Shown here in pieces: positions 16,690 to 20,283 of a stretch of DNA of 32,436 nt (the first letter of the stretch is position 1; every line of letters begins with the position of its first letter). The stretch is from the NCBI RefSeq assembly GCF_029213205.1, contig NZ_JARGNH010000027.1, positions 1-32,436 on the forward strand. Direction: 5' to 3'. The notes beneath the pieces are model-generated. The model saw only the letters and a program-made list of their open reading frames with translations. It searched no databases and was not told the DNA's origin. Source of the DNA: Pseudooceanicola sp. Lineage in GTDB: Bacteria > Pseudomonadota > Alphaproteobacteria > Rhodobacterales > Rhodobacteraceae. A program made the translations under genes and the position numbers.

Positions 16690-18642
16690 ATGCACGCATT
16701 TCGCAGCCACACCTGCGCCGATCTGACCGCCAAGAACGTTGGTGAAACCGTGCGCCTTTCCGGCTGGGTGCACCGGGTGCGCGACCATGGCGGGGTGTTG
16801 TTCATCGACCTGCGTGACCATTACGGCATGACCCAGGTGCTGTGCGACCCGGACAGCCCGGTGTTTGCCGAGGTTGAAAAGGCCCGCTCGGAATGGTGCA
16901 TCCGCATCGACGGCGAGGTGAAGGCGCGCGCCGAAAGCCTGGTGAATTCGAAAATCCCGACCGGCGAGATCGAAGTCTTTGTGCGTGACCTCGAAGTGCT
17001 GGGCGCGGCCAAGGAATTGCCGCTGATGGTGTTCGGTGATCAGGAATATCCCGAGGAAACCCGGCTGCGCTATCGCTATCTCGACCTGCGGCGCGAGGTG
17101 ATGCAGGGCAATATGGCGCTGCGGTCGGACGTGGTGGCCTCGATGCGCAAACGCATGTGGGACCAGGGCTTTCGCGAATACCAAACGCCGATCATCACCG
17201 CCTCAAGCCCCGAAGGCGCGCGCGATTTCCTGGTGCCATCGCGGCTGCATCCGGGCAAGTTCTATGCGCTGCCGCAGGCGCCGCAGCAGTTCAAGCAATT
17301 GCTGATGGTGTCGGGCTTTGACAAATATTTCCAGATCGCGCCCTGTTTCCGCGACGAAGACCCGCGCGCCGACCGCTCGCCCACCGATTTCTACCAGCTT
17401 GACCTTGAGATGAGCTTTGTCACCCAGCAGGACGTGTTCGACACGATCCAGCCGGTGATCGGCGGAATTTTCGAGGAATTCGGCGGCGGCAAGACGGTCG
17501 ACAAAGACTGGCCGCAGATTTCCTATGCTGACGCGGCGCTGAAATACGGCTCGGACAAGCCGGATCTGCGCAACCCGATCGAGATGCAGGTGGTCTCTGA
17601 GCATTTCGCCGGATCCGGCTTTGCCATTTTTGCCAAGCTGTTGGAGCAGGAGGGCACCGAAATCCGCGCCATTCCCGCGCCGACCGGCGGGTCGCGCAAG
17701 TTCTGTGACCGGATGAACGCCTTCGCGCAGAAGGAAGGGCTGCCGGGGATGGGCTATATCTTCTGGCGGAAGCGCGACCGCTCTCCCGTCTACGAAGACG
17801 TGATGGCGAAGATCGAGAGCGGCGACACCGACTTTGAAAGGTTCAATGCCGAATCCGAGTATTTCAGAAACTTCGAAGCGCAGATAGTCCAGCTAATCAA
17901 AGCAGGTGATCCGCTCGACAAGATAAAAGCTCGAGAATTGGCCGAGATGTATTTGGGCGACCTCGAAGCCGCAGGCCCACTCGCCAAGAACATCGGCCCG
18001 GAACGCACCGAAGCGATCCGCCAGCAACTCGGCCTGGCTGTCGGCGACGCGGCGTTCTTCCTGGGTGGCAAGCCGAAGCAATTCGAACCGGTGGCAGGGC
18101 GGGCGCGCAATGTCATCGGCGAAGAGCTCGGCCTGACCGACAAGAACCGCTTTGCCTTTGCCTGGATCGTCGATTTCCCGATCTACGAAAGGGACGAGGA
18201 AACCGGCCGGATCGATTTCGAACACAACCCGTTCTCGATGCCCCAGGGCGGGCTGGAGGCGCTGCAGGGCGATCCGCTGGCGGTGCGTGGCTATCAATAT
18301 GACCTGGCCTGCAACGGCTATGAGCTGGTCTCCGGCGCGATCCGCAACCACAAGCCCGAGATCATGTTCAAGGCCTTCGAAATCGCCGGCTATGGCCGCG
18401 ACGAGGTCGAAAAGCGCTTTGGTGGCATGGTCAACGCCTTCCAATACGGCGCGCCGCCGCATGGAGGCTGTGCCGCCGGGGTCGACCGGATCGTGATGCT
18501 GCTGGCCGAGGCCGACAACCTGCGTGACGTGATGCTGTTCCCGATGAACCAGCGCGCCGAAGACCTGATGATGGGGGCGCCGAGCGAGCCCACGGCAGAG
18601 CAGCTGATGGAATTGTCGCTGAGGGTGATCCCGCAGGAGTGA
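16690..18642 (+). CDS. aspS: Aspartyl-tRNA synthetase with internal insertion
   Basis: A 650-residue class IIb synthetase charging tRNA-Asp. The N-terminal OB fold (1-105), motif 2 with [20 protein letters not shown] (219-238), the bacterial GAD domain and motif 3 [12 protein letters not shown] (from about 593) are intact. His33 in RDHGG is the residue associated with non-discriminating AspRS that also charges tRNA-Asn. Bacterial AspRS is normally about 590 residues; the extra length is one block, about residues 361-425, between GYIFWR and [10 protein letters not shown] in the GAD domain, with unusual codons (see separate entry). The start ATG at 16690 begins MHAFRSHTC; an upstream in-frame ATG at 16648 overlaps the promoter. 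The restriction-type gene follows 4 nt after the stop. Confidence 0.96.
17770..17964 (+). other. In-frame insertion in the GAD domain of AspRS
   Basis: About 60 charged, helix-favouring residues (from [12 protein letters not shown] to [11 protein letters not shown]) separate two segments that are adjacent in ordinary AspRS. The reading frame is kept. Codons here include ATA twice, CTA, AGA, AGG, CGA, AAA twice, GCA and TTG twice within roughly 60 codons, whereas the rest of aspS uses almost only ATC, CTG, CGC, AAG and GCC. No repeat or target duplication is evident at the edges. The segment shows none of the motifs of an intein, and no palindrome of the Rickettsia palindromic element type was seen. 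Confidence 0.75.
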
Positions 18643-18646
18643 GAGA

Positions 18647-19414
18647 ATGCTGAACAGGTTGCGGGATCAAGGGTTTGACGTTCTGACCCGCAACCATTCG
18701 GACGCGATTCTGAGCTTTGATTTTCCCGATGAATTGGCCGAGATCGTGACCGCCCTCAGCGCGTTCCGGATTTCCATGGCCGAGCTGATTGGCGGTGGTG
18801 GCGGCGAAAGCGGGCAGACCCAGCGTCTGCGTCGGGCACTGGATGCGGCGCGCTGGCGCAAGCACAATTTTCATGTCCAGACCATTGTCGATGGAGTCGA
18901 ACGGGACGGCATCAGCCATGAGGTGGATCATGTGCGTTTCACCGGCAAGGGTGCGCTGGCGCTTGAGGTCGAGTGGAACAACAAGGATCCGTTCTTTGAC
19001 CGGGATCTGGAGAATTTCCAGCGATTACACGCACTTTCGGCGATTTCGGTTGGGTTGATCGTGACCCGTGGTGCCTCGATGCAGGAGGGGTTTCGCGGGC
19101 GGATCACCGATTGGCTGCGGGCCAATGATCTGCATTCGGAGGGTGATCTTGAGCGTCTGGGCATCGGCGACCGGACCCAGCGCCAGAAGGACCGGGTGGC
19201 CGGGCAGGTGGCGCGGGGGGTGGCGTTTCACGAGGCCTTTGCCACGGCCTTTGTGCAGGACAAGTTCGGCCCCTCCACCACCCATTGGGCGAAGCTGGAA
19301 GACCGGGTGGCGCGTGGTGTCGGCAATCCCTGCCCATTGCTGTTGATCGGCTTGCCGATGGCGATCCTGTCGGATGCGCCGACACAAGAGCAGGGCCCGG
19401 CGCGGCTGATCTGA
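18647..19414 (+). CDS. BglII/BstYI-like type II restriction endonuclease
   Basis: A 255-residue protein whose centre has a PD-(D/E)xK-type core of the BglII/BstYI kind: EVDHVRF with Asp94, then 12 residues later LALEVEWNNKD with Glu107 and Glu109, followed by FFDRDLENFQRLHAL and the strand VGLIVTRG (135-142). In BglII the matching residues are Asp, Glu and Gln in VEVQFSN. The N-terminal half is helical. BglII and BstYI cut AGATCT and RGATCY; whether this enzyme reads a GATC core is inference. The gene begins 4 nt after aspS with GGAG upstream, so it is read with aspS, and its 3' end faces the methyltransferase gene across repeat copy B. Confidence 0.8.
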   Translation: MLNRLRDQGFDVLTRNHSDAILSFDFPDELAEIVTALSAFRISMAELIGGGGGESGQTQRLRRALDAARWRKHNFHVQTIVDGVERDGISHEVDHVRFTGKGALALEVEWNNKDPFFDRDLENFQRLHALSAISVGLIVTRGASMQEGFRGRITDWLRANDLHSEGDLERLGIGDRTQRQKDRVAGQVARGVAFHEAFATAFVQDKFGPSTTHWAKLEDRVARGVGNPCPLLLIGLPMAILSDAPTQEQGPARLI

Positions 19415-19558: not shown

Positions 19559-20191
19559 CTATTCGGCGGCGACGCCGGAATTATAGGCGTAGGTCTTCCA
19601 GGTTGGTTTGTAATCGGCATCGGCCTGATTGCCCCAGACCGTCCAATTGTCGCGCTGGCCACGGCCGAACAGTTCCAGATAGGGACCCCAGGAGCAGTCT
19701 TCGATCAGCTTGTATTGCTCGTCCGGTTTGCGCGAATGTTCGCGTTTGCGGGTCTGCATCATGTTCACCTGGCTGCGACCGGGCGGCATGGTGCGGGCGT
19801 TCTTGCCGCGGGTCCCGAACAGCAGGATCTCGGTCACGTTGCGGAAGTAAAAGCCGACACCGCGCCCGTCACTGCCGCCATCCTTGCGGATCTTGTGCCA
19901 GATGATGTTGGATTTATAGGTGAAACCCCAGGCGTCCAGCACCTTGAGCCCATCCGGCAGCAGCGCGTTGGGCACCCACATGTAGCAATGCGCGCGCTCC
20001 TCAAGATGCTCGGCGACCGGCAGGGCGCAGATGTCGTCGAGATTCATTGTCGGATAGCGCGACAGGCGTTTGTGTTCCGGCGCGACCTTGCCGGTGCGGT
20101 TGGTGAATCGCCAGGGCGGGTCGGCCATGACGCAGCCAAACCGGGCACCGTCCAGGAATTTACGCAGGTCTTGGGATGGGTTGCTCGACAT
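19559..20191 (-). CDS. MT-A70 family DNA N6-adenine methyltransferase
   Basis: A 210-residue methyltransferase of the MT-A70 class. The catalytic motif DPPW is at 24-27, near the N-terminus as usual; YMWVPNALLPDGLKVLDAWGF (read as segments around 70-90), HSRKPDEQ (152-159) and YLELFGR (171-177, SAM/active-site end) complete the fold. It lies tail-to-tail with the BglII-like endonuclease and would protect its sites by N6-methyladenine. The start at 20191 (MSSNPS) is preferred because sequence upstream looks like promoter (TATATATTG just before it); a TTG at 20260 is an alternative. No separate specificity domain is visible. An orphan regulatory methyltransferase is the alternative reading. Confidence 0.87.
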   Translation of the reverse strand: MSSNPSQDLRKFLDGARFGCVMADPPWRFTNRTGKVAPEHKRLSRYPTMNLDDICALPVAEHLEERAHCYMWVPNALLPDGLKVLDAWGFTYKSNIIWHKIRKDGGSDGRGVGFYFRNVTEILLFGTRGKNARTMPPGRSQVNMMQTRKREHSRKPDEQYKLIEDCSWGPYLELFGRGQRDNWTVWGNQADADYKPTWKTYAYNSGVAAE

Positions 20192-20283
20192 ATTCAATAT
20201 ATAGCGTCCCGGCGCGGGTTCTGTCCATGGAACATAATGTGAACTCGTGAGGTTAATCAACCGTCAATTGCACCGGGTGGCGG

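Follow-up and report, generated by a model that had tools for sequence, protein, structure and literature searches.

A probable hypervariable cassette at a fixed site in the aspartyl-tRNA synthetase of Rhodobacteraceae

Aminoacyl-tRNA synthetases are known to carry lineage-specific insertion domains, extra in-frame domains at surface loops that are usually conserved throughout a given lineage. Surface antigens, phage receptors and restriction specificity genes are typical hypervariable loci under diversifying selection, and in-frame insertion into housekeeping genes is known from the palindromic elements of Rickettsia. Here we describe a block of 65 in-frame codons in the GAD hairpin of the aspartyl-tRNA synthetase (AspRS) gene, aspS, in a 32,436-nucleotide stretch of Pseudooceanicola sp. 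DNA (contig NZ_JARGNH010000027.1; hereafter the window). Outside the block, the whole protein resembles the bacterial-type AspRS of the curated profiles NF001750 and TIGR00459. Like the insertion domains of other synthetases, the block is an extra in-frame domain at a surface loop; unlike them, long blocks at this site differ between congeners, and a separate, shorter block is the only conserved one. The site shares with the hypervariable loci its allelic replacement between conserved flanks, low GC content, many unrelated alleles and patchy distribution, but AspRS is a cytoplasmic, essential enzyme of translation. The Rickettsia elements differ in their palindromes, in their copies elsewhere and in forming one sequence family, none of which applies to the AspRS blocks. 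To our knowledge, hypervariable and swapped alleles are not familiar for a core translation enzyme, and a search of the open-access literature by titles and abstracts (subscription papers lying outside its coverage) returned nothing on this AspRS site. The window's block is very probably one allele of a hypervariable cassette that occupies a fixed spot in the AspRS of the family.

The gene starts with ATG at position 16690, its stop codon ends at 18642, and a whole-gene search of the genome gave this one match and no second AspRS. Its product scores 786.5 bits against NF001750 (cut-off 443) and 573 against TIGR00459 (cut-off 373.85), its predicted AspRS motifs are present, in invariant columns of the family alignment (A1), and it has the fold of a GAD insertion domain, with the Pfam GAD match split by the block and scoring 22.4 bits, just below the cut-off of 23.4. 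A first-pass annotation of the window had proposed that an essential translation gene has here accepted all of its excess length as a single charged, helical, in-frame block, written in codons rare in the rest of the gene. Each of these points is borne out. The excess consists of 65 codons, exactly 17770-17964, directly after GMGYIFWR; aspartate, glutamate, lysine and arginine make up 38% of its residues, and three helices are predicted in a structural model. The eight codons singled out by that annotation (ATA, CTA, AGA, AGG, CGA, AAA, GCA and TTG) account for 11 of the 65 in the block and 16 of the 585 elsewhere (Fisher p = 1.6e-5). The GC content is 0.52 in the block against 0.63 in the remainder of aspS, and the block's codon score of 0.547 is the lowest in the gene, the lowest other 65-codon stretch reaching 0.647. 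This codon oddity is real but moderate for the genome, because 8.4% of same-length stretches from the open reading frames of the window (n = 18) score as low.

Across the family, the site varies by species: the block is absent, conserved or wildly different. Within the genus, 21 of 22 genomes were matched, and a long block is present in four of them, the window's included, and absent from the 17 others. A family search with the window protein matched 287 of 295 genomes. The match came as a single piece in 32, all of which proved on reading to carry a long block; a further 80 genomes with two matches, chosen from the higher-scoring ones among the matches listed, comprised 53 with no block, 25 with a block of 31 residues and two, G156 and G267, with a long block. 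Three more long blocks, in G022, G182 and G208, were found by profile or block search. Nor do most Rhodobacteraceae share one block with ordinary codons: long blocks, present in at least 37 of the 287 matching genomes, are different in nearly each one, and a shorter conserved block with ordinary codons is found in about another quarter of the genomes read (25 of the 80 with two matches). The proposal of a recent foreign insertion thus stands as regards the near relatives, most of which lack the block, and falls as regards the event itself, since the block is not a single isolated insertion, nor is it an ancient feature uniform across the lineage. Among alphaproteobacteria outside the family, the loop is short in the 16 of 26 loci readable by the anchor pattern, where 20-24 residues lie between the anchors, and in four or five more loci read by eye. 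An AspRS on an IMG/VR contig (L301:3463-5217), 69% identical to the window's and by its length without a long block, could come from host DNA or be encoded by a phage.

To define the states of the site, 197 distinct AspRS sequences of the family, from a sample of one genome per species, were read by script between two near-invariant anchors. The site is empty (S) in 80 rows, holds 31 residues (M) in 75 and holds 37-94 residues (L) in 42, which corresponds to anchor-to-anchor lengths of 21-26, exactly 49 and 55-112 residues, respectively, with 30 different lengths in all. Elsewhere the gene is steady in length: 160 or 161 residues separate the right anchor from the GxDR motif in all 179 rows that show both (the 18 of 197 without a recognisable pattern being left out). 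A single conserved type makes up 74 of the 75 M rows (49 M1, 24 M2 and one more M1-like), L135 being unrelated. These M blocks have ordinary codon usage and no Pfam match of note. The ratio of nonsynonymous to synonymous differences (pN/pS) is 0.078 in the M1 block against 0.160 in the adjacent gene, taken as 110 residues on each side, and 0.174 against 0.189 for M2. The M block (EKTADAVAQELGI../KQSPDSIAQERGI..), at AspRS residues 361-391 in the M-type loci L061-L133, is patchily distributed despite the conservation of M1. Descent of L from M was considered and rejected, as a profile comparison shows no relation (probability 1.8).

The long blocks are as diverse as the M block is uniform. Over 861 pairs their mean identity is 0.239, against 0.208 for shuffled blocks and 0.82 for the AspRS core, and it is independent of likeness elsewhere in the gene; among the four congeners with long blocks, the core is 86-90% identical and the block 14-29%. 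Identity reaches 40% in only nine pairs. The blocks of L060 (63% identical) and L292 (60%) are related to the window's, and the nearest cores of both the window and L060 belong to S genes; L149 and L143 have another block in common, 48% identical, in cores 85% identical. In this small set, phmmer links 21 of the 42 long blocks to others at E 1e-5 and 25 at 1e-3, mainly on the strength of a C-terminal motif found in 22 of the 42 and in 1.8% of shuffled blocks. Because of these links and the shared motif, a good part of the long blocks can be said to have a common, very diverged origin, with the base better kept and the tip free; to judge from their sequences, the others are indistinguishable from unrelated proteins. 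The two best-aligned pairs, with pN/pS of 0.213/0.781 and 0.176/0.831, suggest purifying constraint.

Composition sets the long blocks apart from their hosts. In all 42, the GC content at third codon positions (GC3) is lower in the block than across the remainder of the gene, with means of 0.51 and 0.82. Regressed on host GC3, block GC3 has a slope of 0.30 in L and 1.07 in M, so M has adopted host usage and L has not. In 32 of 41 long blocks examined, two of the 41 not being comparable by this measure, the codon score lies below every other stretch of the same aspS, against 1 of 71 M blocks. The long blocks are nevertheless real protein: the frame is open in 42 of 42, GC content at the three codon positions is 0.62, 0.36 and 0.51, and the residues include 0.2% cysteine, 12.9% glutamate and 11.4% alanine. 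As the foreign composition persists in lineage after lineage, it is most simply explained by continual renewal.

The states have also changed often. On a FastTree phylogeny of the AspRS core without the block, parsimony requires at least 52 changes among the three states, or 41 and 26 once branches with support below 90 and below 95 are collapsed and then resolved so as to minimise the changes. Shuffled labels require 87, 72 and 51, which indicates that the states are inherited but also switch frequently. At 18 nodes, each with support of at least 90, uniform groups of differing state are joined. In several pairs on an M background, the L member's C-terminal motif is that of other L blocks (e.g., L146 and L163), a pattern suggesting that an existing cassette was substituted and not that a new insertion arose. 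The site thus combines many alleles between conserved flanks with their exchange across lineages.

The position of the block on GAD, a matter the first-pass annotation had left to modelling, is predicted to be an exposed one: the model places three helices at the tip of the GAD beta-hairpin, with a predicted local distance difference test score (pLDDT) that, taken in ten-residue steps, is 83-89 over most of the block and falls to 65 at one loop. The best overall explanation, to which we would give about an even chance, is a hypervariable cassette at this tip that is diversified under selection. Long blocks would turn over continually, by recombination in the near-invariant flanks that replaces the cassette and by fast change in place, and the turnover would be upheld by diversifying, probably negative frequency-dependent, selection. 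The exposed tip may be the point where AspRS meets a foreign protein, whether from a phage, from another mobile element or as a competitor's toxin, and an AspRS that charges both tRNA-Asp and tRNA-Asn would be a worthwhile target. That the diversifying selection comes from such a foreign agent acting on the exposed tip is a proposition on which we lean slightly towards doubt. More tentative still, and in our estimation rather more apt to fail than to hold, is the idea that AspRS serves as a front line (an evasion surface, even a sensor) against phages, mobile elements and competitors through swapped and re-diversified cassettes.

Several observations weigh against selection for cassette turnover. 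No foreign agent acting on AspRS was identified, and the searches made found no source of the block outside AspRS. The codon oddity is near nil in two low-GC genomes with long blocks (L152 and L154), where GC3 is nearly equal in block and gene. Synonymous sites are saturated in the alignable long-block pairs, so pN/pS carries little weight, and no positive selection was measured. Support in the core tree is poor for many branches, reaching at least 90 at 92 of 196 internal nodes, and one clade of 10 rows is entirely L. A shallow alignment underlies the GAD model, whose mean pLDDT is 70.7, and the AlphaFold model of the whole protein is too poor for use (mean pLDDT 55.3). Next to the site, close pairs of differing state are no more diverged in their flanks than same-state pairs. 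The same comparison speaks against a long imported tract and shows no sign in the flanks of the gene-conversion tract that the first-pass annotation had allowed as one possible origin.

The main rival to selection for turnover is a permissive hairpin tip at which in-frame insertions come, go and drift neutrally, M being one fixed and useful case; we consider this unlikely. It would agree with the exposure of the loop in the model, with the short loop in the alphaproteobacteria read outside the family, and with the at least 12 of 45 blocks that match no other when all are compared with one another, even at E 0.01. It would also agree with the neighbouring open reading frames, among which no linked gene or partner was found: in 112 loci and 29 families, clustered crudely and with reverse-strand frames picked too, no family is strongly tied to long blocks, and the strongest difference is of a family rarer beside L (2/31 vs 28/81, p = 0.0019 uncorrected). 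A permissive tip does not, however, account for a composition that is that of soluble helical protein and not of random codons (which would give 2.8% cysteine and 4.9% glutamate), for the C-terminal motif common to about half of the long blocks, or for three states without intergrades, no L block being shorter than 37 residues. Neutral residents should, moreover, drift to host composition, as M did, and low GC3 persists in all L lineages.

It is also conceivable, if improbable, that the block co-evolves with an internal partner, docking a lineage-specific protein or the amidotransferase that would serve a tRNA-Asn-charging AspRS. No asparaginyl-tRNA synthetase (AsnRS) over the curated cut-off was found in any of 64 family genomes, S, M and L alike and G000 included, in a search whose control rose above the cut-off in 7 of 14 named genomes; AspRS should therefore charge tRNA-Asn too and is presumably non-discriminating throughout the family. 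The M1 block, more conserved than the gene around it, likewise fits an internal partner. But the absence of AsnRS is common to all three states and hence gives no account of switching, and a conserved partner would not tolerate identity at background level among congeners.

The first-pass annotation had further suggested that the block is a marker linked to the restriction gene behind aspS. That gene and the next form an ordinary restriction-modification pair, as an MT-A70 methylase adjoins the BglII-family nuclease. Where the sequence behind aspS extends to 2.5 kb or more, a BglII-like gene follows at 9 of 39 loci with L, 6 of 67 with S and 1 of 73 with M. The excess beside L is significant against all others (9/39 vs 7/140, Fisher p = 0.0017) but not against S alone (p = 0.08), and the rows share ancestry; block and nuclease each occur alone (30 of 39 long-block loci have no such gene, and the 7 of 140 have no long block), and the nuclease's ordinary partner is the methylase. 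The association is a loose one, the suggested linkage is not supported, and it is very improbable that the block is a passenger of these genes. As a separate observation, at least 19 of the 197 distinct loci have a BglII-like gene behind aspS, and the end of aspS seems to be a favoured spot for the BglII/MT-A70 pair. A diverged BglII-like branch is found beside aspS in L168 and L182 (minus strand), with 43% mutual identity, one with a long block and one without.

Least credible of all is a selfish or mobile coding element, comparable to the Rickettsia palindromic elements, that homes to this one codon position. The invariably identical insertion point and the foreign composition might speak for it, but a profile of 24 blocks is significant in AspRS only across 248 genomes, the block has no palindrome, no Rfam match and an RNA fold z of -0.45, and the blocks are too different to be copies of one element. 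Those of the profile's weak matches that were read are a GntR-like regulator and synthase-like proteins; in the window's own genome, a search with block and flank gave one match and the profile one further weak match (E 0.033). A repeat of the Rickettsia type was rejected on the same grounds, there being no inverted repeat inside the block and no copies in other genes. An intein was rejected as well: at the thresholds applied, Pfam assigns no Hint-type family to the aspS product or to any of the 42 blocks, and the block is too short for one.

Table 1. Features of the window around aspS
Feature	Position	Strand	Basis or remark
aspS, bacterial-type aspartyl-tRNA synthetase, 650 aa	16690..18642	+	NF001750 and TIGR00459 above cut-offs
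Left anchor GMGYIFWR, strand of GAD hairpin	17746..17769	+	invariant in 32 rows of alignment A1
Long (L-type) hypervariable cassette (probable), 65 residues, three predicted helices	17770..17964	+	anchors, model, codon bias
C-terminal part of cassette, sole part with motif common to about half of long blocks	17890..17964	+	alignment A3
Right anchor, 10 residues	17965..17994	+	9 of 10 residues invariant across A1 (32 rows); E in at least 90%
BglII-family nuclease	18647-19414	+	five bases behind aspS
MT-A70 type II methylase	19559-20260	-	convergent to nuclease

For multilocus trees, AspRS of the family should not be aligned across the block stretch. Even if the variation is neutral, the site offers a natural set of in-frame domain insertions, dozens of them, at a single place in an essential enzyme. 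The Rhodobacteraceae are abundant and mostly marine, and if turnover under selection is the true explanation, AspRS would be repeatedly targeted by some agent in this family, and the cassettes would provide a direct handle on that agent.
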